Shown: positions 1 to 42,010, numbered from the stretch's first letter. The stretch: 42,117 bases of DNA from a virus (IMGVR_UViG_3300009082_000036:1-42117); one strand, 5' to 3'. The notes: generated by a model from the letters alone, not told the origin. A program made the numbers and translations.

Positions 1-123
1 GTGGATTTTTAAATGATAATACTATCTTTAATCTTACTCAATGTTTTATTGTATTATCGTTCAACGAAGTTTGAAGGCATATGTGATGATATCCCTGTTT
101 TTAATCAGGCAGTAGAGATACCA
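1..123. repeat. Left copy of the 123-bp terminal repeat
   Basis: These 123 bases recur exactly as the last 123 bases of the window. The repeat covers the end of the methyltransferase gene and the start of the TPR/GT-C gene, so it lies in coding sequence. A circular molecule, or a circularly permuted phage genome assembled with an overlap, explains this best. A physical direct terminal repeat is possible but would be unusual inside two overlapping genes. Confidence 0.95.
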
Positions 124-1389
124 AAGTGGAAGTATATTCCGAAGTGGTGGTCATTTTTCTGGTATCATTTGCATGGAAGAAAATATATAAGCTGGAAGTT
201 AGCCCATTGGCAGGTGATAGGGATACATACACTTAACTGCATTCTTATTTATTTAGCATTTGGACAAAATGATATATCAACTGTCGCGGCATTACTGTTT
301 GCGGTTAATCCAGTAAACAACCAATGTTCAATTTGGATTTCAGGCAAAGGTTATGCGATGAACACTACTTGCGCTTTACTGATGTGGATGTTTCCTGCAT
401 TCAGTGTAATACCATATCTGTTTGGAACTTATTTCTGCGGAGCAAGTTTAGTATTGTTTCCCCTGATATTTTTATTTACTAAATATTGGTGGTTATCGTT
501 ATTAGTCTTATTAGGTTTATACAGGGAGAAAGACAGGATATTCAACAAGACAGACCCTCGTAGTAAATTCAATACCGAAAGTAATGAGGAATTAAAATCC
601 ATTAAACCAATTAAACTGATTTTATTCTTTAAAACATACGCATATCATTTTATAAACGCGCTATCCGCGAGGATTTTAGGATTATACCATCAGTATTTAT
701 TCTTAATGGGCGTTAGTCCTGATGAGAATAAGAAGTGCTACAAGATAGACGGATATTTTTTCTTTGGCATTATATTGGCGATCGCAACTTTTTATACAAG
801 GCATATAGGGTTGCTATGGTTTTTATTAGCTATAGCTCAATTTTGTAACATAATATCTTTCAATCAAACTATTGCAAGTAGATATGTTTATTTGGCTAAT
901 GTGGGGCTTGTGTATTTATTGGCTGGTTTTATAATCAATTATCCTGTTATCATAATAGCATTTCTTGTTTACTATATTACTAAATTAGTATTCTTTATGA
1001 AAGCGTATAACAATGAATATTGGTCTATTGAGTATGCCTGTTGGGAACAACCAAACTTCTTTTATTCTTGGCAGAACAGGGCGGCGCATTGTTTTCTTAA
1101 TCGTAATTATCACGGTGCGTTGGGTAATACATTAAAAGCTATGGAGTTACGTAAAGATGACTGGAAACTCACATATAATCTAGTGCAGATATATTTGATA
1201 CTTGGCCATCTGCCGTTGGCTAAAAAAACTTTTGAAGATGCAAATAAATTAGGAATTGCCGGCAGAGAGGAGCAGATAGGCAATCTTATGAGAAGATTAG
1301 GGAAATGGATAGATGAAATTGAGAAACAAGCGAAAACTGAAGGCAACAGAGTTGATATTGATTTACTTAAGTTTGATATTCAGAGATGA
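13..1389 (+). CDS. TMTC-like GT-C membrane glycosyltransferase with TPR tail
   Basis: A 458-residue membrane protein with many hydrophobic segments in its first ~340 residues and a TPR-like helical region at about 355-420. An acidic pair (D25, D26) follows the first membrane segment. The stretch FAVNPVNNQCSIWISGK (about 96-112) resembles the FALHPVHTEAVAWISGR segment of TMTC/DUF1736 O-mannosyltransferase-like proteins, and ASRYVYLANVGLVYLLA resembles their AERYLYLPSVGL motif. Such GT-C enzymes move sugars from polyprenyl phosphate carriers on the outer face of the inner membrane. The start overlaps the methyltransferase stop across the circular join (ATGA), so this is the penultimate gene of the glycan operon. 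The donor and acceptor cannot be read from sequence. Confidence 0.7.
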   Translation: MIILSLILLNVLLYYRSTKFEGICDDIPVFNQAVEIPKWKYIPKWWSFFWYHLHGRKYISWKLAHWQVIGIHTLNCILIYLAFGQNDISTVAALLFAVNPVNNQCSIWISGKGYAMNTTCALLMWMFPAFSVIPYLFGTYFCGASLVLFPLIFLFTKYWWLSLLVLLGLYREKDRIFNKTDPRSKFNTESNEELKSIKPIKLILFFKTYAYHFINALSARILGLYHQYLFLMGVSPDENKKCYKIDGYFFFGIILAIATFYTRHIGLLWFLLAIAQFCNIISFNQTIASRYVYLANVGLVYLLAGFIINYPVIIIAFLVYYITKLVFFMKAYNNEYWSIEYACWEQPNFFYSWQNRAAHCFLNRNYHGALGNTLKAMELRKDDWKLTYNLVQIYLILGHLPLAKKTFEDANKLGIAGREEQIGNLMRRLGKWIDEIEKQAKTEGNRVDIDLLKFDIQR

Positions 1390-1571
1390 TGGTAGTAAAA
1401 CGTTTAGATATCGAAATTGATTGTGTTCAACTTTGTCCCTATTGCAGGGAGAAAATAATATTAAAAAAGACCTGTGGTGATCTTGAGTGCCAATATAAAC
1501 ATCATATAGTAAAAATGCGATTAAAACGTAAGACCCGCCAAAAACGTTCCACAAGAACAAATATAATATAA
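1386..1571 (+). CDS. Small zinc-finger-like basic protein
   Basis: A 61-residue protein with one CPYC knuckle and a second Cys/His group (CGDLECQYKHH), followed by a strongly basic tail (KMRLKRKTRQKR). The pattern suggests one zinc site and nucleic-acid or ribosome contact. Its ATG overlaps the preceding stop (ATGA), making it the last gene of the glycan operon. An inverted repeat begins at its stop codon. Function unknown. Confidence 0.6.
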   Translation: MMVVKRLDIEIDCVQLCPYCREKIILKKTCGDLECQYKHHIVKMRLKRKTRQKRSTRTNII

Positions 1572-1745: not shown

Positions 1746-2039
1746 ATGGCTGGAAATTCAAATTCAGGAAGAAAGCCGCAATTAAGCGAAATGACATTGG
1801 ATGAAATATTGCATGTCAGTTCAACTATTTTATTAAGATGGCTTTCTAATCCTGAGGTTCCTGATTCAGTTAAGATACCCGTTGTTTCACAATTAATTTC
1901 AAAGCGCATTCCAACTAAAACTATTTTAGAGGGTGATAATTTAGGTCAGCGCAATATCACTAATGTAATTTATCCTGAAGGCTGGCGGCCAAAAGAGGAA
2001 CGCATCGTTGGATCTGAAACTCAAAGTATATCAGGCTGA
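1746..2039 (+). CDS. Candidate terminase small subunit
   Basis: A 97-residue protein directly upstream of, and overlapping, the large terminase gene by 32 bp. The N-terminus (MAGNSNSGRKP) resembles that of many small terminase and phage DNA-binding proteins, and a helical stretch rich in Leu/Ile follows (about 15-60). Position and size fit a small terminase, which recognises phage DNA and starts packaging, but I do not recognise a definite helix-turn-helix. No good Shine-Dalgarno sequence precedes the ATG. Confidence 0.5.
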   Translation: MAGNSNSGRKPQLSEMTLDEILHVSSTILLRWLSNPEVPDSVKIPVVSQLISKRIPTKTILEGDNLGQRNITNVIYPEGWRPKEERIVGSETQSISG

Positions 2040-3285
2040 TTTTTATTATAGTCAAAAGAGATACCCCTGTTTAGTATCTGGCATTGGGACAGGCAAGACA
2101 ATGATGCTCTTATACAAGATACGGGATTTCTGCCTTAAGTATCCCAATACCCTCGCATTAATAGTCCGCAAAGAATTTACCGATTTAAGAGATTCCACGA
2201 TGAAAGATTTTGAACGCTACTTTAACGAGAAGCCATCATCGGAGAAGGATTATAAATACCCCAATGGTTCATGTATAATGTTTAGGCATGCCAGCGAAAT
2301 AGCAGTATTAAAGAATATAAACTTAAGTATATTTGGTATTGAGCAGGCCGAGGAATTTGAAGATGAGAATACATTTACTTTCCTACGGGATAGGTTAAGA
2401 AGGGATAACGCACCATTACGTCAAGGGTGTATTATTGCTAATGCCAACGGACATAATTGGATTTATAGAATGTGGATTAATAACCCCGCATCAGTTGATT
2501 TTGATGTATCAACAGCAAGCACGTTTGATAATGAAGACAATCTCCCGGCTGATTTTATAGCAGACTTAAAGCGTATGGAGATAGAAGCACCGAATCATTA
2601 TAAACAATTTGTGCTTAATTCACACGAAGAGCTGGGTAAAGATGATTTGTTGTTAAATGGCAGGGAAGTATATGACTCACCTAAAATAGTATTCTATGAG
2701 GAAGGCACACAGAAGCGCATATTGGCAGTTGATGTGGCCCGCTTTGGGGAAGATGAAACCGTGTTTACTATTATCCAATCAGAGAATATTCGTCAATGGT
2801 CGCAAATATATCAACACGCTTGGCGAGATAAACCATTAACTGAGGTAGTTGGTAAGACACTTGATTTATGCAGAGAGTTCACTCCGGATATAGTAGCTAT
2901 TGATGATTGCGGAATGGGTGGCGGGGTAACTGACAGGTTAAGCGAACAGCGTCAGATACCCGAAGCATTTATAGGCAATGAGAAACCATCAAACATACAA
3001 TATCAGAATAAGCGCTCAGAGGGATTCTTTAGGATGAAGGAGTTCTTCAACAAGGGTGATATTCGTATTATCAATGATCCGGTGCTTACTGAACAGTTAT
3101 TGTCTATCCGCTATAAATACAATTCAAGCAATATCAAATCAATAGTAACCAAAGATGAAATGCGTAAAGATGGACTTAAATCGCCGGATAGGGCTGATGC
3201 TCTTATGATGGCATTATATTATACAGACAGAGTATTCTCGGAGAGGATAAGGGCTAATTATCCTCGTGAGGCAGTTTTAACATAA
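2008..3285 (+). CDS. terL: Terminase large subunit
   Basis: A 425-residue packaging motor ATPase/nuclease. The Walker A motif GIGTGKT is at 25-31, a Walker B-type strand with acidic residues (SIFGIEQAEEF) at 107-117, and an ANANGHNW coupling-motif-like segment near 144-151. The RNase H-fold nuclease half shows acidic residues at D242 (AVDVARFGED), D299/D300 (AIDDCGMG) and D394/D397 (SPDRADAL), as expected for headful or cohesive-end cutting of concatemers. The start is TTG at 2008 with an AAGAGGA ribosome site at 1993-1999; the reading frame overlaps the small subunit gene. Length is typical of podovirus TerL. Confidence 0.93.
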   Translation: MDLKLKVYQADFYYSQKRYPCLVSGIGTGKTMMLLYKIRDFCLKYPNTLALIVRKEFTDLRDSTMKDFERYFNEKPSSEKDYKYPNGSCIMFRHASEIAVLKNINLSIFGIEQAEEFEDENTFTFLRDRLRRDNAPLRQGCIIANANGHNWIYRMWINNPASVDFDVSTASTFDNEDNLPADFIADLKRMEIEAPNHYKQFVLNSHEELGKDDLLLNGREVYDSPKIVFYEEGTQKRILAVDVARFGEDETVFTIIQSENIRQWSQIYQHAWRDKPLTEVVGKTLDLCREFTPDIVAIDDCGMGGGVTDRLSEQRQIPEAFIGNEKPSNIQYQNKRSEGFFRMKEFFNKGDIRIINDPVLTEQLLSIRYKYNSSNIKSIVTKDEMRKDGLKSPDRADALMMALYYTDRVFSERIRANYPREAVLT

Positions 3286-4159: not shown

Positions 4160-4385
4160 AACGGGAGTTCTTGAGCAACCGAAAGAAGAGCATAAGCTTA
4201 CTAAGCTGGCAGATGTTTCTATAGACAAGGATAATAAGATTTATGTTAATTGGCCGATAGATAAGAAAGAGACAGTGATTGTGGCGCTTGCTGAAGCAAT
4301 CAAGCTGGTTGAGACCTATAAGACATCTGAGTTAATCACTCCTAAACCAAGCATTCTTGATTTCATTAAAGGAGTTAAACGATGA
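4146..4385 (+). CDS. Unknown small phage protein between GNAT and connector
   Basis: A 79-residue, soluble, charged protein with no motif I recognise. It overlaps both neighbours (GNAT gene by 14 bp, connector gene by 4 bp in an ATGA), so it is translated as part of the head operon. The ribosome site is GGGAGG, inside the end of the GNAT gene. It may be a head assembly or virion component, judged by position only. Confidence 0.6.
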   Translation: MQKAETGVLEQPKEEHKLTKLADVSIDKDNKIYVNWPIDKKETVIVALAEAIKLVETYKTSELITPKPSILDFIKGVKR

Positions 4386-6013
4386 AGTTCACCCCTGAAG
4401 AGATAATCAAACGAGTTGACAGATTAGACGCTGATCGTGCTAATTATTCCACATTCTGGCAGGATGTGGCTAAGTATATAGTTCCTCGAAAAGCATACAT
4501 TACACGAAGCAGGACACCCGGTGAGAAGTATGCTTATGATGTCTATGATTCAACGGCAATACAGGCTAATCTCGTGTTAGCAGCAGGGCTTCATTCATAT
4601 CTTACTAATCCTAACTCTCGTTGGTTCAGCTTACGTGTGCAGGACGAAGAGTTAAACAAATCGGCTGAGGTTAAGGAATGGTTATCAGATACAGAAGATA
4701 GGTTGTTTAACGTATTGAATGCATCTAACTTTAATCAACAGATACATGAGCTTTATTTGGACATGGGTGCTTTCGGCACAGCATGTATGTATGAAGAAGA
4801 AGACCCGAATGATGGAGTGCGCTTTTACACACGTGATATAGCTGAAATATATTTATGTGAGAATGAAAAGGAGAAAGTTGATACGGTTTATCGTAAGTTT
4901 ACCTTGACGGCCAGACAGGCGCATGAGAAGTGGGGTGAGAAGGCAGGGGAAGTGGTCAAGCTCTTTATGGATAAGAAACAATATGATAAGACAGTTACCT
5001 TTATCCATTGTGTTACTCCACGCTATGAACGTGATATATCAAAAGAATCTTCTGCTAACATGCCATTTGAATCTACATACATTGAGGTTTCTAAGAAACA
5101 TACTGTATCGGAGAGTGGATATTTGGAATTTCCTTACTTCACTCCACGATTTAACAAAAACTCTAACGATGTATGGGGTTCATCGCCCGGTATGGTGAGT
5201 TATGCGGATATTAAAATGCTCAATGAAATAGTTAAAGTAGTTATCAGGGCGGCTCAAAAGGTAGTAGACCCACCTATTGTATTGCCTCATGATGGGTTCT
5301 TATTGCCTATTAAGTATGGGCCGGGAGCGCTTAACTTTAGATTGAAGGGTAATCCAACTGATAAGATTGAACCGCTTATGAGCGGTCAACGAATTGATAT
5401 TGGTTTGGAGATAATTAGTGACTACAGGAATTTGATAAAAAAGAATTACTTTGTTGATTTATTTTTATTGTTAGCTGACCCGGCACGTAAAGATATGACG
5501 GCTACTGAGGTAATGCAGAGAGTTGAAGAGAAGATGTTAATATTAGCCCCTGTGCTTGGCAGATTGATGAATGAGTTTTTAGATCCCTTAATACAGAGAA
5601 CATTCAATATCCTATGGCGGCAAGGCAGGCTAATGCAACCACCTGCCCAGTTGCAGGATGTTCCCTATCAGATTGAATATATATCTCCATTAGCGCGCTC
5701 ACAGAAGCTTGACCAAATGAAGTCTATAAACAACTTCTTAGTGTTGATACAGAACATAGCACAAGTCAAACCCGATGTCTTAGATAATGTCAATGAGGAT
5801 GAAGTTGTTATAGAGATACAAGACCTCTACGGTATTAATCCTAAGTTTGTTAGGGATAGGGTAGAAGTAGAACAGATAAGAGCGGCAAGGGCGCAAGCGA
5901 TAGAAAAACAAAATCAATTGGCTATGATACAACAAGGAGCCGACGCCCTTAAAACAGGGGCAGAGGCGGACGCAACTATGGCAGCCAGCAAGAAAGGGGG
6001 AACTAATGGCTGA
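4382..6013 (+). CDS. Portal (T7-type head-to-tail connector) protein
   Basis: A 543-residue protein matching the podovirus head-tail connector family (PF12236 type): an N-terminal region on DRANYSTFWQDVAKYIVPRK, then TPGEKYAYDVYDSTAIQA and LAAGLHSYLTNPNSRWFSL, and a long helical C-terminus rich in Gln and Ala (about 470-535). Twelve copies form the ring through which DNA enters and leaves the head and onto which the tail assembles. Length fits the family (about 500-550). It overlaps the next gene by 8 bp. Confidence 0.92.
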   Translation: MKFTPEEIIKRVDRLDADRANYSTFWQDVAKYIVPRKAYITRSRTPGEKYAYDVYDSTAIQANLVLAAGLHSYLTNPNSRWFSLRVQDEELNKSAEVKEWLSDTEDRLFNVLNASNFNQQIHELYLDMGAFGTACMYEEEDPNDGVRFYTRDIAEIYLCENEKEKVDTVYRKFTLTARQAHEKWGEKAGEVVKLFMDKKQYDKTVTFIHCVTPRYERDISKESSANMPFESTYIEVSKKHTVSESGYLEFPYFTPRFNKNSNDVWGSSPGMVSYADIKMLNEIVKVVIRAAQKVVDPPIVLPHDGFLLPIKYGPGALNFRLKGNPTDKIEPLMSGQRIDIGLEIISDYRNLIKKNYFVDLFLLLADPARKDMTATEVMQRVEEKMLILAPVLGRLMNEFLDPLIQRTFNILWRQGRLMQPPAQLQDVPYQIEYISPLARSQKLDQMKSINNFLVLIQNIAQVKPDVLDNVNEDEVVIEIQDLYGINPKFVRDRVEVEQIRAARAQAIEKQNQLAMIQQGADALKTGAEADATMAASKKGGTNG

Positions 6014-19447: not shown

Positions 19448-19647
19448 CATCCGACGAAAAAATATTAAATGAAATAAAGGAAAGTATCAAGGAACTCTTT
19501 GCTAAAATAGCTGAGTTAAAAGTAACTGAAGATGAGCGTAGAGCATGGATAAAAGAGAAGTCAGAGTTCCAGTCAAGGATAGATGATTATAAGCGGCATA
19601 AAGCAGCATTAGAACTGAGGGAGAAGAGATTAAATGGGCAAAATTGA
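19444..19647 (+). CDS. Small coiled-coil protein of the adhesion module
   Basis: A 67-residue protein, nearly all charged helix with heptad spacing (LNEIKESIKELFAKIAELKV and later RIDDYKRHKAALELREKRL). It starts within the stop of the LamG gene (ATGA) and overlaps the next gene by 14 bp. A coiled-coil linker or chaperone for fibre trimerisation is plausible. No family recognised. Confidence 0.6.
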   Translation: MTSDEKILNEIKESIKELFAKIAELKVTEDERRAWIKEKSEFQSRIDDYKRHKAALELREKRLNGQN

Positions 19648-29551: not shown

Positions 29552-30280
29552 ATGGCAAGAATACGTTATTTAAAACCTGATTTCTTTTTTGATGAAGATT
29601 TAACCGAATTACCCTATGAACATAGACTGGCATTTTCTGGTCTTTGGTGCTATGCGGATCGTAAGGGCAGATTGGAAGATAGCCCGAAAAAGCTAAAGGC
29701 GGTCATTTTTCCCTATGGTAAAGAAAATATGGATAAAATTTTAGATGATTTAACCAAAAAACCCTTTATTGTCCGGTATCAGGCGAATGGTAAGAAATAT
29801 CTACAAATCGTTAATTTTGAAGAGCATCAGAAGCCCCATCATACCGAAAAAGAAAGCACCATTCCACCACCAGAACAGACATTAACCGTTAAAGATACGT
29901 TAAAAGACGGTGAGAAAAAGGAAGGAATGGAAAAGGGAATGGGGATGGGTAATGGGGATGGAAAAGGAAACACGGCTTCGCCAGTTTTACAAACTGCTTT
30001 AAATAAAGTTTATAAAGAGGGCCTGAATATTTACGCCTTATTAAACAAACTAAAAAAAGAAAGCAAGGTTGGGGCGCGTCTCCCGGAAGAAGTTATTTTA
30101 AGGGTTTGCAATAACTATACTCAAAACAAGGTGAAGGTGGAAAATCAATGGGCTTGGTTTACTAAGGCGATCATTGGCGCTTGGGAGCAATGGAATGTTG
30201 AACAAAATATAAAAGATAGCGATAAATTCAAACATAGCGCGGTAAGTATCAAAGATATTCTAACCCTATGCCAAAAGTAA
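29552..30280 (+). CDS. Phage replication initiator-like protein
   Basis: A 242-residue protein. The N-terminal ~100 residues (MARIRYLKPDFFFDEDLTEL, HRLAFSGLWCYADRKGRLED, IVRYQANGKKYLQIVNFEEH) form the winged-helix domain of phage replisome-organiser or initiator proteins. A Lys/Gly-rich linker with GMGMGNGDGKG follows, then a helical C-terminus (about 145-240) that may recruit a host helicase, by analogy with DnaD/DnaT-type proteins. With no phage polymerase present, this is the likely link to host replication machinery. Confidence 0.72.
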   Translation: MARIRYLKPDFFFDEDLTELPYEHRLAFSGLWCYADRKGRLEDSPKKLKAVIFPYGKENMDKILDDLTKKPFIVRYQANGKKYLQIVNFEEHQKPHHTEKESTIPPPEQTLTVKDTLKDGEKKEGMEKGMGMGNGDGKGNTASPVLQTALNKVYKEGLNIYALLNKLKKESKVGARLPEEVILRVCNNYTQNKVKVENQWAWFTKAIIGAWEQWNVEQNIKDSDKFKHSAVSIKDILTLCQK

Positions 30281-32340: not shown

Positions 32341-32583
32341 ATGAGGAACGTTGTCGTAATAGAGAATGAACGGATAGCTAAGCAACAGGAACTCAAGGAA
32401 GCAGAAAAGAACAACTTTCAAGTGGCGCAAGAAATATTGTTGTTGCAAAAAGATATAATTAATTTACAAGCCAAGAAAAAAGACCTTGAAATATCTGCTG
32501 GTAAGTCATCGCATATCATAAGAATATTACGTATAGAATTGAAAGCCCTTGAAAATGAGTTCTGGAATACTAAAAACATCTAA
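32341..32583 (+). CDS. 80-residue coiled-coil protein
   Basis: Long heptad helix, QQELKEAEKNNFQVAQEILL and onward, covering nearly all residues. AAGGAGGAG ribosome site. It overlaps the NinG/HNH-like gene by 29 bp. No family recognised; a dimerising structural or regulatory role is possible. Confidence 0.55.
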   Translation: MRNVVVIENERIAKQQELKEAEKNNFQVAQEILLLQKDIINLQAKKKDLEISAGKSSHIIRILRIELKALENEFWNTKNI

Positions 32584-32968
32584 GAAATATCTGAGAAAAA
32601 AAGCAGATCAAGTTTTGCAGGATTACATCCGCGCTAAACATCAAAACGATTTATGTTGGGTATGCGGAGAGAGATATATCGTTTGCGGCCACCATTTTAT
32701 TCCTTGTTCTAATTCAAATGCTACACGTTATTATTTGCCAAACATCATACCAATCTGCAAAGAATGTCATTGGAAAGTTCATACTCAACCGCATTTGGTT
32801 GAACCAATTATTTGTTTTAAATTAGGGGAATCGTGGTATAATGAATTAATGGTAGTTAAGCGCGAAGGCGTAAAAGTAAACCGGGAATGGTATCAGATTA
32901 ATCTAAATGTTTTAGAAAATCTATTAGAGGATTTGACAAGGGAGGCAACCGGTGATACGCGTTGGTGA
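32555..32968 (+). CDS. NinG/HNH-like zinc nuclease or recombination protein
   Basis: A 137-residue protein from ATG 32555 (TTG 32549 is also possible). The core CWVCGERYIVCGHHFIPCSN, then NIIPICKECHWKVHT, has two Cys pairs and an HH-F group in the order of HNH and NinG/Rap recombination proteins, which cut branched DNA or act near Holliday junctions. The C-terminus (WYNELMVVKREGVKVNREWY) is also like NinG. It ends within the first bases of the glycan operon. Confidence 0.65.
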   Translation: MSSGILKTSKKYLRKKADQVLQDYIRAKHQNDLCWVCGERYIVCGHHFIPCSNSNATRYYLPNIIPICKECHWKVHTQPHLVEPIICFKLGESWYNELMVVKREGVKVNREWYQINLNVLENLLEDLTREATGDTRW

Positions 32969-33632
32969 TTATTTAGTAACTCCAGAGGATGAACTATCTG
33001 TTCTAAATGTATTACGGTCTAATCATCTTTCCGAAGGTAAAGTTGTCAGGGAGTTTGAAGAAAAATGGGCCGACTTTTGCGGCTCTAAGTATTGCGTTCT
33101 TACTAATTCAGGCACGTCAGCTTTGATGTGCGCTCTGCAAGTTCTTAAGTATTATACTGCAACAAAATCAGTTTTAACAACCCCCTTAACTTTTATAGCT
33201 ACAATTAATGCCATTATTTTAATGGGTTTTGAACCTGTATTTGCTGATGTTAATAAAGAAACTTTTGGGATTGAGCCTTCTTTAGGCCCGGAACTATTTT
33301 TGCCAGTTCACCTTTACGGTTATCCGGTGGATATGGATAAGTTTGAATATCGTTTTATGATTGAGGATGCGTGCGAATCCCACGGCACTCTGTATAATGG
33401 CAAGAAAGCAGGTTCAGTAGGGCTTATGGGGGTTTTTTCTTTCTACATAGCGCATAATATCCAAGTTGGGGATATGGGCGCGGTTGTTACTAATAATCTG
33501 CAAATATATAAACTGCTTAAAAAGATTAAAGCTCATGGCCGTATGTGCGAGTGTCCTGTTTGCCATAGGTTAGAGGGAAATTGTCCGTATAAAGATAAGA
33601 TTTTGATCCTCGTTTTACTCATACGCACATAG
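32952..33632 (+). CDS. RfbH/E1-like sugar 3-dehydrase (DegT family), N-terminal part before a frameshift
   Basis: GTG start with GGAGG 7 bases upstream. Residues 1-216 have the DegT/DnrJ/EryC1/StrS fold: SGTSALMCAL (phosphate loop), EDACESHG (D139 contacts the cofactor ring) and SFYIAHNIQVGDMGAVVTNN, where H168 replaces the usual PLP lysine. His here is known in ColD and in CDP-4-keto-6-deoxyglucose 3-dehydrase (E1/RfbH). Cysteines C141, C199, C201 and C211 give C-X57-C-X1-C-X9-C, close to the C-X57-C-X1-C-X7-C [2Fe-2S] pattern of E1. After K216 the frame is lost; the rest follows at 33599. First gene of the glycan operon. Confidence 0.82.
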   Translation: MIRVGDYLVTPEDELSVLNVLRSNHLSEGKVVREFEEKWADFCGSKYCVLTNSGTSALMCALQVLKYYTATKSVLTTPLTFIATINAIILMGFEPVFADVNKETFGIEPSLGPELFLPVHLYGYPVDMDKFEYRFMIEDACESHGTLYNGKKAGSVGLMGVFSFYIAHNIQVGDMGAVVTNNLQIYKLLKKIKAHGRMCECPVCHRLEGNCPYKDKILILVLLIRT

Positions 33633-34069
33633 CATATAATTTTAAGACTACAGAATTACAAGCGGCTTTAGGTTTAAACCAGCTTAAACATGCCGACGAG
33701 ATTATTCGCAAGCGTCAAGAGAATGTCAAATATCTTAATGATGGCTTAGCAGGGTTAGAGCAATTACAACTGCCTATTCATGATCCTACAGTAAGTTATT
33801 TAGCTTATCCTGTTATTATTAAAGATGAGTCTATTAACCGCAATTATTTTTGCAATAAACTTTCAAATTCAGGGGTAGAGAATAGGCCACTTTTCTCATG
33901 TGTTCCCTTACAACAGCCGGCGTATTCATTTATGAAAGAGAAGTGGGCCGGAAAACTACCAAATGCAGAGTGGCTTGGGGAGCGTGGATTTCATGTGGGT
34001 TGCCATCAGTATTTGAAAAGAGAAGATTTGGATAAGATTATAGATGCTATCAAACAGGTATTAGTATGA
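33599..34069 (+). pseudogene. C-terminal part of the RfbH/E1-like gene in the -1 frame
   Basis: This frame opens right after a TAA (33596-33598) and reads DFDPRFTHTHIAYNFKTTEL, then QAALGLNQLKHADEIIRKRQ, the usual DegT/RfbH continuation. Adding one A to the AA at 33597-33598 joins both parts into a 372-residue protein, the normal family length. Its TGA overlaps the next ATG exactly (ATGA). No X-XXY-YYZ slippery heptamer precedes the break. The cause is therefore a one-base deletion, by mutation or by assembly error; the intact rest suggests it is recent. Confidence 0.85.
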
Positions 34070-34995
34070 TTTCTGTTATAGTTACTGATTATAAAAATTT
34101 AGAATTAACTAAAAGATGTCTGGAAAGTCTTTATCAAACTACCTATAAATCTAAACAAATAATTGTAATATGCAATGGGTCAGATATAACATCCAGAAGT
34201 TTTTATTTTGAGGAGCAGAGGCAGGGAAGGATATTCTTTGTTGATAATCATTACAATAAGGGTTTGGCTGGCGCTTTTAATTCTGGAGTTTTTTATTCTA
34301 AAGGGGATTATTTATTCTTTCTTAATAATGATACGCTTGTTAAGGAAGATATATTTGAAAGACTTTTGGAATCTAAAAGCGATATTACAGGTTGTAGGAT
34401 GTTTAATTATGATGGCTCGACAGAGCTTGACAGCTGGATATCAGTGGATAAGTTCGGTTGTCCAGCAGGTAAAACAGGGCCTATATTTTATCCTGATGGA
34501 GCCATATTTATGAGGCGTGAAGTGTTTGATGATATCGGCGGTTTTGATGAAAAACTTTTTCTTTATGGTGAGGACAGGGATTTATGCTGGCGTGCATGGC
34601 TAGCTAATTATAATGTTGGCGTAAAATTTGATGCCATATTTTATCATAATTCTTCCTGTGCAAAAAACGGAACGAATTATTACAGGAGAAAAATAAGTGA
34701 AAGGAATATAATTCGTTCAATGATAAAAAATTATTCATTGTGGTATCTTCCGGGCATACTTATCCAGTATAGTTTTTGGTCAATTTTAGAATTAATTTTA
34801 ATTTTATTTACTAATCCTAAGGCTTTGTGGAAGTCTTATCTTCCTGCGTATTGGTGGAATATTGTTAATTTTAAAGATACTCTATCGAAAAGAAAAGACA
34901 TAGTCCGTAGAGTACCTGATTATTGCGTTCCATTTTCAAGGGTAATAGGTAAATTATTTGTTTTAAAAACTCAAGGGAGGCCTCAATGGGTGTAA
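34066..34995 (+). CDS. GT2-family glycosyltransferase with C-terminal membrane segment
   Basis: A 309-residue GT-A enzyme: ISVIVTDYKNLELTKRCLES (nucleotide-binding start), FLNNDTLV with N88-D89 in place of the DXD metal motif, DGAIFMRREVFDDIGGFDE, and GEDRDLCWRAW (168-178) near the catalytic base. It resembles rhamnosyltransferase-like GT2 enzymes. A hydrophobic segment (about 225-255) may hold it at the inner membrane. It likely adds one sugar to a lipid-linked glycan on the cytoplasmic side. Confidence 0.88.
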   Translation: MISVIVTDYKNLELTKRCLESLYQTTYKSKQIIVICNGSDITSRSFYFEEQRQGRIFFVDNHYNKGLAGAFNSGVFYSKGDYLFFLNNDTLVKEDIFERLLESKSDITGCRMFNYDGSTELDSWISVDKFGCPAGKTGPIFYPDGAIFMRREVFDDIGGFDEKLFLYGEDRDLCWRAWLANYNVGVKFDAIFYHNSSCAKNGTNYYRRKISERNIIRSMIKNYSLWYLPGILIQYSFWSILELILILFTNPKALWKSYLPAYWWNIVNFKDTLSKRKDIVRRVPDYCVPFSRVIGKLFVLKTQGRPQWV

Positions 34996-35987
34996 TTTTA
35001 ATTACGGGCGGGTGCGGCTTCATTGGTTCTAATATGGCAGAATATTTCCTAAAGAATGACTGGGATGTTATTATTTTAGATAATTTTTCCCGTAAAGGAG
35101 TAGAAGAGAATGCTGCTATTATTGAACATCTTGGGTGTAAAGTCATCAGGGGCGACATACGATGTGTAGAGGATTTTAAAGTTATTCCTGAGGTGGATGC
35201 CATCATAAACTTGGCTGCTAATCCCGGGATACCTTGGTCAATAGAGAATCCTATTTACGATGCGCATACTAACTTGATGGGGGCATTGAATGTTTTTGAG
35301 TTTGCCAGAAAGTGTGGGGCATGTGTTATCCAAGCTTCTACAAATAAGGTTTATTCCGATGCAATAAATTCAATATCATTAGAACGATGTAGGACACGGT
35401 ATAAATTCCCGAGTATCTATGCAAAAGGAATCAGTGAGATGTTTTCTGTAGATGGTTTAGGCAGGCCTCATTCACCCTATGGATGTTCAAAATTAGCCGC
35501 CGATATTTATGCCCAAGAGTATAATACTACTTATAACGTTCCGACAATTTGTTGCAGGATGTCGGCGATTTATGGGCCACGACAGATGGGTGCTAGCGAA
35601 CAAGGGTGGGTGGTATGGTTTATGTATTGTAAGAAACATGGCATACCCTTAGAGATTTTTGGCGATGGCTTGCAAGTCAGGGATTTATTGTATATAGATG
35701 ATTTATGCAAATTGTATTATTTGTTGATTGATAAGATGGAAAAGTATCGGGGAAATGTTTTTAATGTTGGTGGCGGGGTTGATAACACACTTAGTTTACT
35801 TGAGATGATTGATTGGTTGAATAAGCAAGGCGGTGAAGTATTAGATGTTTCTTACAAGGATTGGCGCACGGCAGACCATAAGGTTTATATTTCAGATATT
35901 ACTAAAGTTAACGTAGTCACTGATTGGTTTCCTTTAGTCGGTGTAGATGAGGGGTTGCAAAAAACTTGGGAGTGGGTAAACAGGTGA
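34986..35987 (+). CDS. CDP-paratose/tyvelose 2-epimerase-like SDR
   Basis: A 333-residue extended SDR. NAD site TGGCGFIGSN (7-16); catalytic T119, Y165 and K169 (HSPYGCSK). Several segments fit the CDP-paratose 2-epimerase (TyvE/RfbE) wording I recall: LDNFSRKGVEEN, ASTNKVYSD, RTRYKFPS, PYGCSKLAAD, YGPRQMGASEQGWVVWF, GDGLQVRDLLYIDDL, FNVGGGVDNTLSLLE. This enzyme turns CDP-paratose into CDP-tyvelose. Beside an RfbH-like gene it points to 3,6-dideoxyhexose synthesis. The ribosome site is AGGGAGG; it overlaps the GT2 gene by 10 bp. Confidence 0.82.
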   Translation: MGVILITGGCGFIGSNMAEYFLKNDWDVIILDNFSRKGVEENAAIIEHLGCKVIRGDIRCVEDFKVIPEVDAIINLAANPGIPWSIENPIYDAHTNLMGALNVFEFARKCGACVIQASTNKVYSDAINSISLERCRTRYKFPSIYAKGISEMFSVDGLGRPHSPYGCSKLAADIYAQEYNTTYNVPTICCRMSAIYGPRQMGASEQGWVVWFMYCKKHGIPLEIFGDGLQVRDLLYIDDLCKLYYLLIDKMEKYRGNVFNVGGGVDNTLSLLEMIDWLNKQGGEVLDVSYKDWRTADHKVYISDITKVNVVTDWFPLVGVDEGLQKTWEWVNR

Positions 35988-37018
35988 AGAGAATTTGCGT
36001 TACAGGGGCTGGCGGTTCAGCGGGAATGAATTTTATTAAATCTTTGCGTCACGCCCCTGAAGATTTTTACATAGTAGGAACGGACTGCTCAAAGTATTAC
36101 GCTAAACTATCTCAAGCCGATAAGACGTATGTGTTGCCTTCTTGTAACGATCCTGCTTATATTGAAGAACTTAATAGGGTGATAAAGACAGAAAGTATTG
36201 AGTTTATTCATGCCCAACCAGATCCAGAAGTCGCTTTCATATCAGAACATAGGGGGGAAATTTACGCAAAAACATTACTCCCTGATGCAAGGACTATCCG
36301 CATAGCACAGAATAAATACAGGCTTAATGTCTTATTGAGAGATTATAAAGTGCCTGCCCCTCCTACCGAGAAGGTAGTAGATTCAGATAATTTAAGGCTA
36401 CTAATAAAATCTAATAATAAGAAATTGTGGCTGAGAGCTATGCGTGGGGCAGGTTCATTAGCGGCACTGCCTATTTATAATTTTGAACAGGCATATTATT
36501 GGATAGAGTATTGGGTTACAAAGGGTCTTACGTGGAAGGATTTTATTATCTCTGATTTTTTACCCGGGAAAGAATACGCTTTCCAGAGTATTTGGTATGA
36601 TGGAAATTTAATAACCTCAGCTTGCCGGCAACGATTGGAATATTTATTCCAAGCACGTATGCCTTCAGGGCAATCGTCTACTCCTACAATAGCTAAGTCA
36701 GTCCATAATAAGTTAGTTAATGGGGTATGCAGGAACGCTATCAAAGCATTGGATAACGAGGCAACGGGTATATTTTGCGTGGATTTGAAGGAGGATGAAA
36801 ATGGTATTCCTTGCGTTACAGAGATAAATACAGGAAGATTTTTCACGACAAGTAATTTTTTCACTTTAGCTGGAAGCAATATGCCTTATTATTATATATT
36901 GATGGGGTATGGGGAAAAGTTGCCAAATTTAAAACAATATGATGCTGTTCTAGATGGGCTGTTTTTTGTGAGGCAAATGGATTGCGGTTCAGTAATGTTT
37001 AATGAAGATGAAATCTAA
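35984..37018 (+). CDS. ATP-grasp enzyme, CarB-like
   Basis: The start GTG 35984 is chosen because it overlaps the previous TGA (GTGA), the rule in this operon. The 344-residue product has a Rossmann-like start (MKRICVTGAGGSAGMNFIKS), a central ATP-grasp core (LWLRAMRGAGSLA, DFIISDFLPGKEYAFQSIWY) and an acidic metal-site segment (FCVDLKEDENGIPCVTEINT). ATP-grasp enzymes form amide or ester links through acyl phosphates. In sugar operons such proteins may add amino acids to a sugar acid or make carbamoyl groups. The substrate is unknown. Confidence 0.8.
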   Translation: MKRICVTGAGGSAGMNFIKSLRHAPEDFYIVGTDCSKYYAKLSQADKTYVLPSCNDPAYIEELNRVIKTESIEFIHAQPDPEVAFISEHRGEIYAKTLLPDARTIRIAQNKYRLNVLLRDYKVPAPPTEKVVDSDNLRLLIKSNNKKLWLRAMRGAGSLAALPIYNFEQAYYWIEYWVTKGLTWKDFIISDFLPGKEYAFQSIWYDGNLITSACRQRLEYLFQARMPSGQSSTPTIAKSVHNKLVNGVCRNAIKALDNEATGIFCVDLKEDENGIPCVTEINTGRFFTTSNFFTLAGSNMPYYYILMGYGEKLPNLKQYDAVLDGLFFVRQMDCGSVMFNEDEI

Positions 37019-37802
37019 GGTTTCGATCATAGTTCCTACTTATAACTCAGAAGAGTTTTTGGATAGGGTGCTTATAAATATACAGGAGCAAACTTATCCT
37101 AATAAAGAGTTGATTGTGGTGGATAATTTCTCTACAGACCACACCCCAAAGATTGCCAAGATGTGGGCATATAAGTTTTATCAAGTAGCTCCCGAGCGGG
37201 CGGCACAGATGAATTATGGCATAGACAAAGCTAAGGGTGATATTATTTACGTAACGGGTTCTGATATGCTTAGGGATATAGATTATGTTAAAGAAGGGGT
37301 TGAATTGATAGAACAGGGTTATGATGCTATATACGCTTCGGTGTTAACAGATTTTAGGGTAGAACATTTTTGGGGTAGGGTGAAGGCTCTTGAACGTAGA
37401 TGTTATATCGGGACAAAATATGAAAGCGCAAGATTTTTCCGCAAAATAGTTTGGCAGGAGTTGGGTGGTTTTGATACGAGTCTTGTAGGGGTGGAAGAGG
37501 ATTTTCAGCATAGAATAGACGATGCGGGGTATGTAATGGGCAGGATAAAGTCAAGAGAATATCATTTACACGAAATAGATAATTTAAAGGAGGTTTTTGA
37601 AAAATATCGGTATTACGGTTCGTTTGTGCCTTACTATCTTGAAAAACATAAAAGCAGAGGGTATCGTTTTTTGAATGTGTTTAGGACTGCTTTTTTTATT
37701 AATATATTTGAGTTGATAAAGCATCCACGTTTAACAATGGGTTTGATAATTTATAAGATAGTTCAATATGTTGGAGGAGCATATGGTCTGTTTAAAAGAT
37801 AA
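37002..37802 (+). CDS. GT2-family glycosyltransferase
   Basis: A 266-residue GT-A protein with SIIVPTYNSEEFLDRVLINI, LIVVDNFSTDHT and YVTGSDML (S87-D88 at the DXD place), then QELGGFDTSLVGVEEDFQHR. It is soluble apart from a weakly hydrophobic C-terminus. It belongs to the same broad family as the gene at 34066 but is not a recent copy. Likely a second transferase of the same glycan. It overlaps the ATP-grasp gene by 17 bp. Confidence 0.87.
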   Translation: MKMKSKVSIIVPTYNSEEFLDRVLINIQEQTYPNKELIVVDNFSTDHTPKIAKMWAYKFYQVAPERAAQMNYGIDKAKGDIIYVTGSDMLRDIDYVKEGVELIEQGYDAIYASVLTDFRVEHFWGRVKALERRCYIGTKYESARFFRKIVWQELGGFDTSLVGVEEDFQHRIDDAGYVMGRIKSREYHLHEIDNLKEVFEKYRYYGSFVPYYLEKHKSRGYRFLNVFRTAFFINIFELIKHPRLTMGLIIYKIVQYVGGAYGLFKR

Positions 37803-38700
37803 AGTTATTATGGTTGCAGGGGGGTCTGGTTTCATAGCGAGCCATTTAATTAAAGCGTTGAAGAAGGAAAATCCAAAGAGAATAATTAACTATGATTTGA
37901 AGAACGGGAATACTCTTACAGAGTATAGAGAGTTAGATGTTTTCTTTGAAATAAATAAAATTGATATCGTGTTTGATTTGGCTACATTGTCTTTGCCTGA
38001 ATCTCTGTTAGTCCCATACAAAGTAGTTAACGATATTGTAAAGATGGCGCTCAATCTTTGCGAGTTACAGCGATTAGGACGTTTTGACCGCTTGATACAC
38101 ATATCAAGTTCTGAGGCTTATGGAACTGCCGGAATAATTCCAATGCCTGAAAGCCATCAATTAAAACCCCGAACTCCATACGCAGGCGCTAAAGCAAGCG
38201 CGGATTTAATCTGCTCTACATATGCTCAAACATTTGGTAATAAGATTGTTATTCCGCGTTGCTATAATGCATATGGCCCGGGGCAACCTTTGAACTGGGG
38301 AGCGGTGATACCAAAGACTATCAATAAGATTCTTAATGGCGAAAAACCTGTTATTTTTAAAGACGGAAAGCAGACAAGGGATTTTGTTTTTGTCAAAGAC
38401 TTGGTTCGTGGAATAATTGAAGTTTCCAAACTTGATATTACAAATGAGGTCATTAATATAGGCACCGGTATTGAAACCCCAATTACTGATTTAATAAATT
38501 TAATCTGTAAGCTTATGGAGTATGAGGGCGAAATAGATTACAGGGAGCAGAGAATTGCTGACGTGTCCCGGCATTGCGCTGATTCGAGTTTGTTATTAAA
38601 ATTGACCGGTTATATTCCTAAGACAAAGTTAGAAGATGGGTTGAAGGAAACCATAAATTATTATGTTAATATACATTCTGCTCAGAATATTTACGGATAA
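37783..38700 (+). CDS. NAD-dependent sugar epimerase/dehydratase (extended SDR)
   Basis: The start ATG 37783 is chosen because of GGAGGAG just upstream. A 305-residue SDR with VAGGSGFIAS (11-20, NAD site), SSSEAYG, Y133-x3-K137 (TPYAGAKASAD), RCYNAYGPGQPLNWGAVIPK and TRDFVFVKDLVRGI. It is related to UDP-glucose 4-epimerases and NDP-sugar 4,6-dehydratases, but the exact reaction cannot be read. It could supply the 4-keto or 4-epimer intermediate for the dideoxysugar route. Confidence 0.85.
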   Translation: MVCLKDKVIMVAGGSGFIASHLIKALKKENPKRIINYDLKNGNTLTEYRELDVFFEINKIDIVFDLATLSLPESLLVPYKVVNDIVKMALNLCELQRLGRFDRLIHISSSEAYGTAGIIPMPESHQLKPRTPYAGAKASADLICSTYAQTFGNKIVIPRCYNAYGPGQPLNWGAVIPKTINKILNGEKPVIFKDGKQTRDFVFVKDLVRGIIEVSKLDITNEVINIGTGIETPITDLINLICKLMEYEGEIDYREQRIADVSRHCADSSLLLKLTGYIPKTKLEDGLKETINYYVNIHSAQNIYG

Positions 38701-40051
38701 ACGTAAATACGTAGAAGGCGACGAGTTACGCCACATGGCTTGTGCTAAGAACTTTTATAAGTTATGGAACAAGTCGTTATATGATACTCATCCGCCATTG
38801 TATTCTTTCTTGATTAAGTGCCTGACATGGCTTGGATATTATCGCGCAGGAGTGATAGTTTCATTTCTTTGCAGTATAGGGCTTTATGTCGTGTGTGGCA
38901 GGCTATATGATTTTTTTGGGATTACCCCCTTTCAAAAATCTGTTGCTTTAGCCTGCCTCGCTTTCAATTATACGCTTATTTATTATTCAAATAAAGCATT
39001 TAGATATCAACTAATAGCATTGTTAGGGGTTACGATGCTTTATGCTTTATTGACACAACACCATATTATTGCTGGATTGTTATGGGGTTTGCTCGGGTTG
39101 ACGTGCACTTATGCAGGGTTGCGGGGATTTTGGATATGGTTAATATCTCCCCATTTGGCAAGTTTGGGAATATTTATATTGATTTATGGCAGTTGGCTTG
39201 GCAAAAAAATTAATGTTTATTCTCAATCCATGTATTATCCAGCAGGAATAGATGGTAAGATCGAGCCAATGAATAGTTTAAATTTTAAAAGATTAATAAG
39301 CCCTCTTTATTTTCCTTGGACTTATTCTTATTATGGCAAGAGGGAACTTGGGTATGATTTAAAAAGTTGGTTCAGGAAAATCGGCGGAATGTATGGGGTT
39401 TACCAAACAAAGCACAGAAGATTAAACATATTGCTTTATATTATAACAGGTTTGATGATACTGCTGACCATTAAGGGAATGATGTCTTCACCTTTTTCGC
39501 TTGTAATTTTGACATTAATCTTGCTATATCCTTCATTACTGAAGCGATTCTTACCCCGTAACTCCATGATGGCTATCCCTTTGATGTGTTATTTTGTGGC
39601 AAAAGGGGTTCCGCAAGCCAATTTACAAGGGTTTAATTTAGCGATTGGCGGGGGTGTGGTGCTCTTTTTATACTTTAACCGAGTATTTATGCTGTCTAAG
39701 CCAAAAATAAAGGCAAGGTTGACATCTATGTTTTTAGATAGATTGGCAAGCGACAGCGGGTTTGAACATGGCATTTTATCTGAGGGGCTGATAGCTTATC
39801 CTATTGTTTACAGATGTAGGCAGAGAATAGTAGTTATACCTCATGATCCCGATCCTATTTTAGCGGAGCAAAGAATAAAATTATCTGTGGAAGAGTTTGA
39901 TTTGAAGTATGTGGTGTTTAGTGAGTTATGGAAAACAGAAGAACACTTAGGTTATCCTGCTATACAATACATCAAAGACAATTATACTTTATTAAAAACG
40001 ATCTTGGAAGATAACGACAAATATTATATCTATGAAATATCTACTAATTAG
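38663..40051 (+). CDS. GT-C glycosyltransferase (PMT/ArnT-like)
   Basis: A 462-residue membrane protein with about nine to ten hydrophobic segments. After the first segment come D20-E21..H24 and D41-T-H-P-P45 (DTHPPLYSFLIK), the signature of GT39/GT83-type GT-C enzymes, where the acidic residue binds metal and donor. They use polyprenyl-phosphate sugars in the periplasm. The C-terminal soluble part (from about 350) may recognise the acceptor. It overlaps the SDR gene by 38 bp. Confidence 0.8.
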   Translation: MLIYILLRIFTDKRKYVEGDELRHMACAKNFYKLWNKSLYDTHPPLYSFLIKCLTWLGYYRAGVIVSFLCSIGLYVVCGRLYDFFGITPFQKSVALACLAFNYTLIYYSNKAFRYQLIALLGVTMLYALLTQHHIIAGLLWGLLGLTCTYAGLRGFWIWLISPHLASLGIFILIYGSWLGKKINVYSQSMYYPAGIDGKIEPMNSLNFKRLISPLYFPWTYSYYGKRELGYDLKSWFRKIGGMYGVYQTKHRRLNILLYIITGLMILLTIKGMMSSPFSLVILTLILLYPSLLKRFLPRNSMMAIPLMCYFVAKGVPQANLQGFNLAIGGGVVLFLYFNRVFMLSKPKIKARLTSMFLDRLASDSGFEHGILSEGLIAYPIVYRCRQRIVVIPHDPDPILAEQRIKLSVEEFDLKYVVFSELWKTEEHLGYPAIQYIKDNYTLLKTILEDNDKYYIYEISTN

Positions 40052-41411
40052 CCCACCTAAAACAGTAATAAAGATGTTCGTTGAATCCCCTCCTGTTGGT
40101 TTAGGTTATCTAGCTACGGCTATTCGCAAACTAGGACATCAAGTATATATTTTAGATTGCTTAGTGGATAACCTAGACAATAAGATGACACTTGAGAGGA
40201 TAAATGATATTAACCCTGATATTGTGGGTATCAATGTGTTCTCTACCGCTATTCAATCTGTGCAGGAATTGATAAAGGGGGTAGGTAAACAGTTGATCAT
40301 CCTTGGCGGCCCTCACATTACAGGTGATCCTGAAAGCACATTCAAATACTTCCCAGAAGCAGACTTTGGTTTTAGGGGTGAGGCTGAGATAAGTATCAAA
40401 GAGTTTGATGAGTATTTAAGAGGCGTTAGAGATATCACTAAAGTATCAGGATTAGTATATCGTGATGGTATGAACGAACCCGTTGAACCTATGGACATAG
40501 AGAGTTTGGATTATCCTGCATGGGATTTGATAGACCCAAAGAAATATTTCAAACAAGTTAATGTTGGTTATAGGTCAATTAATGTCCATTTTTCGCGTGG
40601 ATGTCCGTTCAGATGCCGGTTCTGCGTGAAGTTAGGAACTAAAGTGAGACTGCGTTCCATAGAACACATATGGGGAGAGTTAGAATATCTGAATAAAGCA
40701 TACGGGGTGCGTAGGTTTATCATAAATGATGAAGGATATACTATGCTTCCTAAGTTTGTCAAAGCATTTTGCAGATATACTATTTCCAAAGGCAATCCAT
40801 TTAGTTATTTTACTGCGACTGGTATGCGGCTTAACCGTTTGGATGATGAGATGCTCGAATTAATGAAGGAAGCAAATCATGAGTTAATGTTCGGCACGGG
40901 GATAGAAAGCGCTGTTCCGAGAGTCAGGCAGGAGTTAATGAATAAGATGTTGACGCAAGATGAACTTGAAGCAGGGTTGAAAATGCTTAACAAACATGGG
41001 TTTAAGCCCGTGGGTAATTTTATTATAGGATTTCCGGGGGAAACAAAAGAAGAACTTATCCAGACTGTCAAGTGGGCATGTAAATCTAAGTGGCTTCATG
41101 GCGCTAACTTTGTTCCATTTCTTCCTCTGCCCGGCTCTGAAGCAGCTAAGGATATGATGGCTTCGGGAGAACTACCTAAGGATTTTGACTTTTCTAAGAT
41201 TAACTTATCTCGTGTAGTCTATGCTCCGAAAGGGATGACTATCAAAGAGTTAGATGAATTAAGGGCTTGGGCTGTCTGGAAATATAACACTAAACCAAAG
41301 ATATTATGGCGGTATCTTTCTGATTGGGGAAGGTTTGTAAGAGCTATTGTAACATTTTTAAGGATTTATTTGCCTAATTGGATGTTGCCGAAAGATTGGA
41401 GAAGACGATGA
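40032..41411 (+). CDS. B12-binding radical SAM enzyme
   Basis: A 459-residue protein. The N-terminal ~130 residues are a cobalamin-binding Rossmann domain (PPVGLGYLATAIRKLGHQVY, PDIVGINVFSTAIQSVQELI, ILGGPHITGDPE) without the DXHXXG His. Then the radical SAM core with C191-x3-C195-x2-C198 (SRGCPFRCRFC) binds the [4Fe-4S] cluster; FIIGFPGETKEEL is the GxIxGLPGET-type motif. Members often methylate unreactive carbons or rearrange substrates. In this operon a sugar or lipid carrier modification is likely. Confidence 0.9.
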   Translation: MKYLLISPPKTVIKMFVESPPVGLGYLATAIRKLGHQVYILDCLVDNLDNKMTLERINDINPDIVGINVFSTAIQSVQELIKGVGKQLIILGGPHITGDPESTFKYFPEADFGFRGEAEISIKEFDEYLRGVRDITKVSGLVYRDGMNEPVEPMDIESLDYPAWDLIDPKKYFKQVNVGYRSINVHFSRGCPFRCRFCVKLGTKVRLRSIEHIWGELEYLNKAYGVRRFIINDEGYTMLPKFVKAFCRYTISKGNPFSYFTATGMRLNRLDDEMLELMKEANHELMFGTGIESAVPRVRQELMNKMLTQDELEAGLKMLNKHGFKPVGNFIIGFPGETKEELIQTVKWACKSKWLHGANFVPFLPLPGSEAAKDMMASGELPKDFDFSKINLSRVVYAPKGMTIKELDELRAWAVWKYNTKPKILWRYLSDWGRFVRAIVTFLRIYLPNWMLPKDWRRR

Positions 41412-42010
41412 GTGAGCCGGTATTATATGATGCAATGGCTTCTTTGGTATGTAGGGTGGAATGTATTGAATTAAATACACAGTATGTTAGAAGTTCATTT
41501 ATCAAAGCATGCGAACTCTGCAAAGACAGGGAAATGGTTGCGGCAGAGATAGGGGTCTATGAAGGAGTGAACGCCCGGTATATGTTATTGAGCAATCCTA
41601 ATATGAAATTAATACTCGTGGATGCTTGGGATAATCTTACTGTTTATACTGGCGGCCCTGTTCAAGCCCCCGCATTTTGTAAATTAGTCAAGGCTGCCGC
41701 GCAGTTTAACATCGCAGGTTTCCCCAATGTTTTATTCGCTAACAAAAACTCTGAAGATGCAGTTGAGGATTTTCCTGATGAGGTATTCGATTATGTATAT
41801 ATAGATGGTGACCATATGTATCAGGCGGCATTAAAAGATATGCAGTTATGGTATCCTAAGGTTAAAACAGGGGGTATCTTAGGTGGCCATGATGTTGCTA
41901 TGAAAGAGGTTTCGGGGGCGTTAGACGTTTTTGTTAAAGAGAATAATATAATTAAATGGGGTAAAGATAAACCCGCCCTTAACAAAAGCGACTGGTGGAT
42001 TTTTAAATGA
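41408..42010 (+). CDS. SAM-dependent methyltransferase (Methyltransf_24 type)
   Basis: A 200-residue class I methyltransferase: SAM loop AEIGVYEGVNARYML (about 45-59), acidic strand end LILVDAWDN, and VYIDGDHMYQAALKDMQLWY with GGILGGHD, as in the Methyltransf_24/TylF-like group that methylates sugars or antibiotics. The start ATG 41408 is chosen because of GGAG upstream and overlap with the previous TGA (ATGA). Its stop overlaps the next start across the circular join (42007 corresponds to 13). Confidence 0.88.
   Translation: MSEPVLYDAMASLVCRVECIELNTQYVRSSFIKACELCKDREMVAAEIGVYEGVNARYMLLSNPNMKLILVDAWDNLTVYTGGPVQAPAFCKLVKAAAQFNIAGFPNVLFANKNSEDAVEDFPDEVFDYVYIDGDHMYQAALKDMQLWYPKVKTGGILGGHDVAMKEVSGALDVFVKENNIIKWGKDKPALNKSDWWIFK

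Follow-up and report, generated by a model that had tools for sequence, protein, structure and literature searches.

In this work we analysed a 42,117-nucleotide stretch of viral DNA (IMG/VR virus record IMGVR_UViG_3300009082_000036; hereafter the window, at its full length), and in particular a large operon of surface-glycan genes that lies upstream of the terminase genes. All together, the data incline us to the view that this operon is a phage-resident glycan-tailoring set, namely an enlarged module, resembling those of serotype conversion, which would block both superinfection and readsorption. The single reactions, the direction of the surface change and the benefit to the phage are what we infer from the gene content and from the comparison with known systems.

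The record carries an exact 123-bp repeat at its ends, and the circular unit therefore measures 41,994 bp. On this unit the operon comprises 12 genes, all on the plus strand, which run from position 32952 through the circular join to position 1571, for a length of 10.6 kb, corresponding to 25% of the unit (Table 1). Neighbouring genes overlap by 4 to 38 nt at every internal junction and, across the join, the stop of the methyltransferase gene and the start of gene 13-1389 overlap by 4 nt. The first gap on the 3' side of the operon, of 174 nt, is found ahead of the position of the terminase small subunit. Scans for promoters and terminators returned nothing in excess of shuffled sequences. The positions of the open reading frames (ORFs), the overlaps at the junctions and the terminal repeat thus agree with the initial annotation, made from the sequence without database searches, which had described a single overlapped operon covering a quarter of the genome.

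The window belongs to a group of about ten IMG/VR contigs with portal identities of 74-78%, and the operon is present, with position and gene order maintained, in each of those that cover the region upstream of the terminase, namely G002 (43.4 kb), L020 and L003. G002 appears to be close to whole, because both its ends fall within the same tail gene. The recurrence in related phages, proposed at the outset as a check, is thereby documented. The genes of the RfbH-like dehydrase, the two GT2 glycosyltransferases (GT2a and GT2b), the second short-chain dehydrogenase/reductase (SDR2), the membrane transferase, the B12-binding radical S-adenosylmethionine (SAM) enzyme and the membrane protein with tetratricopeptide repeats (TPR) constitute a core shared with G002 and L020, while L003 holds just the last of them. 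Other genes are variable: a TyvE-like SDR, an ATP-grasp enzyme and a methyltransferase in the window; an SDR of the GDP-mannose-4,6-dehydratase type, a hexapeptide protein and a SPASM radical SAM enzyme in G002; a hexapeptide protein, a SPASM-like protein and a second B12 radical SAM enzyme in L020. Such swapping of accessory genes between phages is as expected for diversifying surface structures.

The operon proteins of these relatives share 48-64% identity with those of the window; the corresponding values are 74-75% for the portal and 83-84% for both capsid and terminase. Divergence in each of the six core genes tested is highest at third codon positions, followed by first and then second positions, which indicates that the operon proteins are kept under purifying selection. 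In addition, five of six operon genes place G002 and L020 nearest to each other, as does the portal, a pattern that fits a descent of the operon along with the phage. No operon gene was found in the stretches compared of more distant relatives (portal identity up to 53%); two of these, L035 and the G174 prophage, carry genes resembling DNA methylases just upstream of the terminase instead. A C-5 cytosine DNA methylase (L022:148-1092; 1.1e-43), not seen in the window, is encoded in G002.

As the window is a single contig, host DNA joined to phage DNA during assembly had to be considered. However, three independent assemblies, G002, L020 and L003, likewise have the operon next to the terminase, at identities of 50-80%, and in the window the genes overlap across the join. 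The chimera envisaged in the initial annotation is therefore rejected, and an assembly artefact can for practical purposes be set aside.

Table 1. Genes of the glycan operon, in their order on the circular unit, and landmark genes of the phage
Feature	Position	Strand	Evidence
RfbH/E1-like sugar 3-dehydrase, N-terminal part	32952..33632	+	PF01041 1.1e-47
RfbH-like C-terminal remainder, other frame	33602..34069	+	PF01041 2.2e-26; 69-72% identical to G002, L020 and L215 copies
GT2 glycosyltransferase a, C-terminal hydrophobic segment	34066..34995	+	PF00535 6.9e-17; 42% over full length to Omnitrophota GT2
SDR, CDP-tyvelose/paratose 2-epimerase-like	34986..35987	+	PDB 9rl0 2.1e-68 (CDP-tyvelose 2-epimerase nearest), 1orr 3.7e-63; absent from G002 and L020 operons
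ATP-grasp ligase with PylC-like N-domain	35966..37018	+	PF21360, PF02655; 44% relative in glycan cluster of 175-kb viral contig
GT2 glycosyltransferase b	37002..37802	+	PF00535 4.2e-24; GtrB-like PHROG 2.5e-10
Second SDR (dehydratase/epimerase), conserved core gene	37768..38700	+	PF01370 6.2e-43; 62-64% in G002 and L020
GT-C type membrane glycosyltransferase (putative)	38663..40051	+	Fold search and Omnitrophota homologue
B12-binding radical SAM enzyme	40032..41411	+	PF02310 2.4e-17, PF04055 1.1e-21; best cellular match found 31%
SAM-dependent methyltransferase (Methyltransf_24)	41378..42010	+	PF13578 6.1e-16; absent from G002 and L020 operons
Multi-spanning membrane protein with C-terminal TPR	13..1389	+	TPR profile matches; 61-63% in G002 and L020, 56% in L003
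61-aa Cys-rich (zinc-ribbon-like) protein, last gene of operon	1386..1571	+	Same place conserved in G002, L020 and L003
Terminase large subunit, constant downstream neighbour of operon	2008..3285	+	phrog_2 7.6e-29; 81-84% in L003 and G002
Portal / head-tail connector of podovirus	4382..6013	+	phrog_332 3e-162; 44% to HTVC010P-type pelagiphages
NinG/HNH nuclease, overlaps operon start by 17 nt	32549..32968	+	phrog_5034 1e-8

The first gene of the operon is split in the window assembly by a frame shift near position 33600, whereas the copies of G002, L020 and of the viral contig L215 are unbroken over the stretches compared; the two halves share 69-81% identity with the copies in relatives. This unbroken frame rules out a programmed frameshift, so that the window sequence is either in error at this point or was broken recently. 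When the protein of an intact relative was searched, the best PDB match was 3bcx, the E1 CDP-6-deoxy-hexulose-3-dehydrase (3.5e-39), and the NCBIfam RfbH profile gave a match of 1.1e-53. As the score of 182.5 bits lies under the equivalog cut-off of 423, the protein is best described as RfbH-like and not as RfbH itself. Specifically, the sequences of the window, G002, L020 and L215 show a DegT fold in which a histidine replaces the lysine that binds pyridoxal phosphate (PLP), together with a cluster of four cysteines for a 2Fe-2S centre. The dehydrase proposed in the initial annotation is thus supported in its DegT/RfbH-type fold by both Pfam and PDB searches, but not as a single intact gene.

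The TyvE-like epimerase (for which a PDB match adds support), the second SDR, the two GT2 enzymes, the ATP-grasp, the B12 radical SAM enzyme and the methyltransferase were all confirmed by Pfam. With its RfbH-like protein, which has the four cysteines and the histidine substituting for the PLP lysine, and its TyvE-like SDR, the operon includes both enzyme families of the RfbH/E1 and TyvE pathway of 3,6-dideoxyhexoses. It differs from that pathway in that no RfbF/RfbG/reductase set was recognised in it, and in that G002 has the GDP-mannose-4,6-dehydratase-type SDR instead of the TyvE-like one.

Both GT2 enzymes match a GtrB-like PHROG (2.5e-10 for GT2b at 37002, 1.1e-5 for GT2a at 34066); the usual C-terminal anchor of two transmembrane helices was not seen, and GT2a has one hydrophobic segment. 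The protein encoded at 38663-40051 gave no direct Pfam match. A Foldseek search with its AlphaFold model, which is weak (pLDDT 54), ranked the GT-C enzymes STT3, DPY19, ALG9 and PglB at the top, and its homologue in an Omnitrophota genome (E 2.9e-56) matches PMT_2 at 4e-4, under the cut-off of that family. On these two grounds the GT-C label appears fair but indirect. The membrane-TPR protein at 13-1389 is common to all four operons. Its AlphaFold model is poor (pLDDT 46), the fold search returned mostly TPR matches, and the two membrane proteins showed no relation to each other when their profiles were compared; the protein at 13-1389 is possibly a GT-C enzyme, by resemblance alone. Thus, of the two GT-C enzymes initially assigned, the first is retained on indirect support, while for the second just the C-terminal TPR region was demonstrated.

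From this gene content, the following course of events may be proposed. During infection, the RfbH-like dehydrase, the SDRs, the ATP-grasp, the B12 radical SAM enzyme and the methyltransferase would turn nucleotide sugars of the host into one modified sugar or a small number of them, probably deoxy- and methyl-sugars. At the inner membrane, these sugars would then be loaded by the GT2 enzymes onto a lipid carrier or a lipid-linked glycan, host proteins would flip the loaded sugars and, at the periplasmic face, the GT-C enzyme or enzymes would transfer them to a surface polysaccharide or glycoprotein that belongs to the host. A surface altered in this way would no longer be bound by the receptor-binding protein of the phage, so that rivals would be kept out and the released progeny would not stick to spent cells.

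No initiating (phosphoglycosyl) transferase, Wzx/ABC exporter, flippase, Wzy polymerase or ligase was recognised among the operon ORFs, which suggests that the operon edits a host glycan rather than building a new coat. The many genes and the several sugar-nucleotide enzymes could also be taken to indicate the synthesis, on infected cells, of a new and complete coat polymer but, with the initiating, export, polymerisation and ligation functions all missing from the recognised set, we regard this as very improbable; the initial proposal that cells acquire a new glycan coat claims too much. Glycosylation of the virion itself, on its tail fibre or capsid, aiding adsorption or hiding the particle, seems to us unlikely too, albeit less so. 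The cytoplasm is the site both of GT2 activity and of virion assembly, and in phage S-CAM7 the glycan genes adjoin a tail-fibre gene. Here, on the other hand, at least one transferase resembles the GT-C type, which acts on the periplasmic side, the operon adjoins the terminase and not the tail genes, and its nearest cellular relatives belong to a surface-glycan cluster. Since the GT-C enzyme would act in the periplasm and the closest cellular relatives lie in such a cluster, a change of the host surface fits best of the three roles initially proposed, with virion decoration less likely; the third, a long carrier state, is neither favoured nor disfavoured by the data.

Three observations weigh against an operon that tailors the host surface. 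First, unless the frame shift in the RfbH-like gene is an error of sequencing or assembly, the pathway of the window virus may be incomplete. Second, with all the operon ORFs accounted for, none matches a flippase family, and the small membrane flippase of the GtrA type is absent. Third, the GT-C assignment is indirect for 38663-40051 and unproved for 13-1389.

The cellular relatives of the operon were then considered. Used as a profile, the membrane transferase at 38663 matched one protein strongly (2.9e-56), encoded in an Omnitrophota genome (G082 C2, L198/L212) by a gene that adjoins a GT2 gene whose product is 42% identical to GT2a; overall, matches to the GT-C profile were found in two of 285 Omnitrophota genomes, one strong and one marginal, and in none of the genomes searched from three other phyla (297, 274 and 277), a distribution that gives a lead only. 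This chromosomal surface-glycan cluster resembles the operon in its adjacent GT2a (42%) and GT-C (28%) genes, and further in a TyvE-like SDR (32%), an ATP-grasp (24%), a hexapeptide transferase and a B12 radical SAM enzyme (24%). It differs in having also an RmlA-like enzyme and a flippase-like protein, both named by sequence resemblance, and in that no RfbH-like gene was matched in the stretch read. Because the identities are low, the cluster is not a recent donor. The best cellular match of the operon's B12 radical SAM enzyme reached 31% in a scan of 84,980 genomes/species that was pattern-seeded and can miss distant forms, and the loci of its cellular matches are without the same gene set. 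A recent acquisition from the host is unsupported, considering this value and the phage-like GC content at third codon positions (0.35 in the operon, 0.32 in the remaining phage).

As to the host, portal matches were found in four of 285 Omnitrophota genomes and in 13 of 282 genomes of the phylum containing Syntrophaceae. Since the same portal family occurs in another phylum too, portal matches do not fix the host, and Omnitrophota is a lead and not a finding. A further Omnitrophota contig (L202, G146 C3) carries a portal relative and, at 18792-19556, a 28% homologue of the window replication initiator.

By its portal, tail, terminase, capsid and the N-terminus of its tail fibre, the window phage is a podovirus. 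The closest named phages are the HTVC010P-type pelagiphages (portal 44%), with which it shares the order of portal, capsid, tail tubular B and terminase, as well as the phrog_332 connector and the phrog_376 tail gene; their genomes are smaller, of about 35 kb. Among the tail genes of the window, a 27-nt tandem repeat (20384-20803), corresponding to 9 residues, was observed within ORF 20233-21141, which has no strong family match. The replication genes include a lambda-type replication initiator (29552-30280), an exonuclease and the NinG/HNH nuclease.

No phage integrase (Pfam PF00589) was found in the window, in G002 or in the other relatives, by a search that was positive in 14 of 14 control genomes, other recombinase types not being searched genome-wide. 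Likewise, no repressor or partition gene was recognised among the window ORFs searched, many small ones of which have no known family. The absence of visible lysogeny genes, noted in the initial annotation, therefore stands; nonetheless, a distant relative (G174), homologous to the window phage in its portal, capsid and tail genes, is a prophage integrated between host genes in another Omnitrophota genome, with an integrase and an S24-type repressor. That prophage also encodes a reverse transcriptase (RVT_1 7.4e-21; L209:9074-12492, G174 C33 157073-160491) immediately following the tail-fibre gene, an arrangement like that of diversity-generating retroelements. In addition, an ORF of the relative L007 resembles an S24 repressor, and the window phage combines a lambda-type initiator and NinG with no DNA polymerase found. 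These features would suit a temperate phage, or a plasmid or pseudolysogen, carrying a usual lysogenic-conversion module and lysogeny genes of unfamiliar type. We consider this reading rather unlikely, though it deserves more weight than virion glycosylation, given that neither the window nor the near-complete G002 has an integrase and that no repressor or partition gene was recognised.

Surface conversion is a textbook property of temperate phages and takes one to four genes. The GtrABC/Oac modules of P22, Sf6, BTP1 and D3 similarly consist of phage-borne transferases that alter the host surface polysaccharide and block adsorption (PMC11436027, PMC4413052), and GtrC of phage BTP1 lowers both superinfection and readsorption (PMC4413052). 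A GT2 and a putative membrane glycosyltransferase are encoded in the window operon too. Those modules, however, have one to three genes, belong to temperate phages and use a ready-made host sugar, whereas the 12-gene operon brings its own sugar-nucleotide and radical SAM enzymes. By this analogy, the operon would work like a serotype-conversion module without being a Gtr cassette, because GtrA is absent and no integrating lifestyle was seen.

A second comparison is offered by lytic phages. Pelagimyophages carry lipopolysaccharide (LPS) genes, for which the same role in exclusion and readsorption has been proposed (PMC7029224). The LPS and glycosyltransferase genes of pelagimyophages and cyanomyophages (PMC7029224; S-CAM7) resemble the operon in comprising several sugar-nucleotide and transferase genes and, in S-CAM7, an RfbH-like dehydrase (28%). 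They differ in belonging to large T4-like genomes (216 kb for S-CAM7), with many genes in the host-recognition region, while the window is a 42-kb podovirus with one fixed operon beside the terminase. Among named phages there are distant relatives only, Streptomyces phage SF3 providing one for the radical SAM enzyme (27%), and no relative of either membrane protein was found. The record 'Aphanizomenon phage Yong-DA' (L187, ON073792.1) looks like a plasmid: the stretch read has genes for replication, for ParA/ParB and for polysaccharides, and none annotated as a virion gene.

Closer relatives of single genes come from viral contigs. In L215 (31.8 kb), which has no portal matching that of the window and appears to be an unrelated phage, an RfbH-like gene at 70% identity stands beside Methyltransf_24 enzymes and glycosyltransferase-like genes. 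Upstream of it, an 842-aa protein (L215:4190-6718) fuses a methyltransferase, a GT9-like domain and a second methyltransferase. The 44% relative of the ATP-grasp enzyme lies in the 175-kb contig L018, inside a long glycan cluster; this cluster, of about 15 genes (L018:3189-21034), comes right after a capsid-like gene and is another sign of large phage glycan cargo.

In conclusion, as we read it, the operon represents phage surface conversion in a new and much larger form. More speculatively, and with considerable doubt, a small podovirus lineage that does not integrate might remake the surface of an uncultured, possibly Omnitrophota, host within a single lytic infection, through a pathway of its own for non-host sugars (RfbH-like, B12 and SPASM radical SAM enzymes), its cargo being exchanged with unrelated phages that infect the same host, in a surface-editing gene pool at the level of phages. 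A conserved set of 10.6 kb in a 42-kb phage in which no integrase was found suggests that changing the host surface pays in lytic or very slow infection too. It likewise suggests that phages harbour a reserve of unusual sugar chemistry, with cobalamin and SPASM radical SAM enzymes and 3-deoxysugar dehydrases of which no close cellular copies were found, and it supplies defined genes for the study of exclusion by glycan change.

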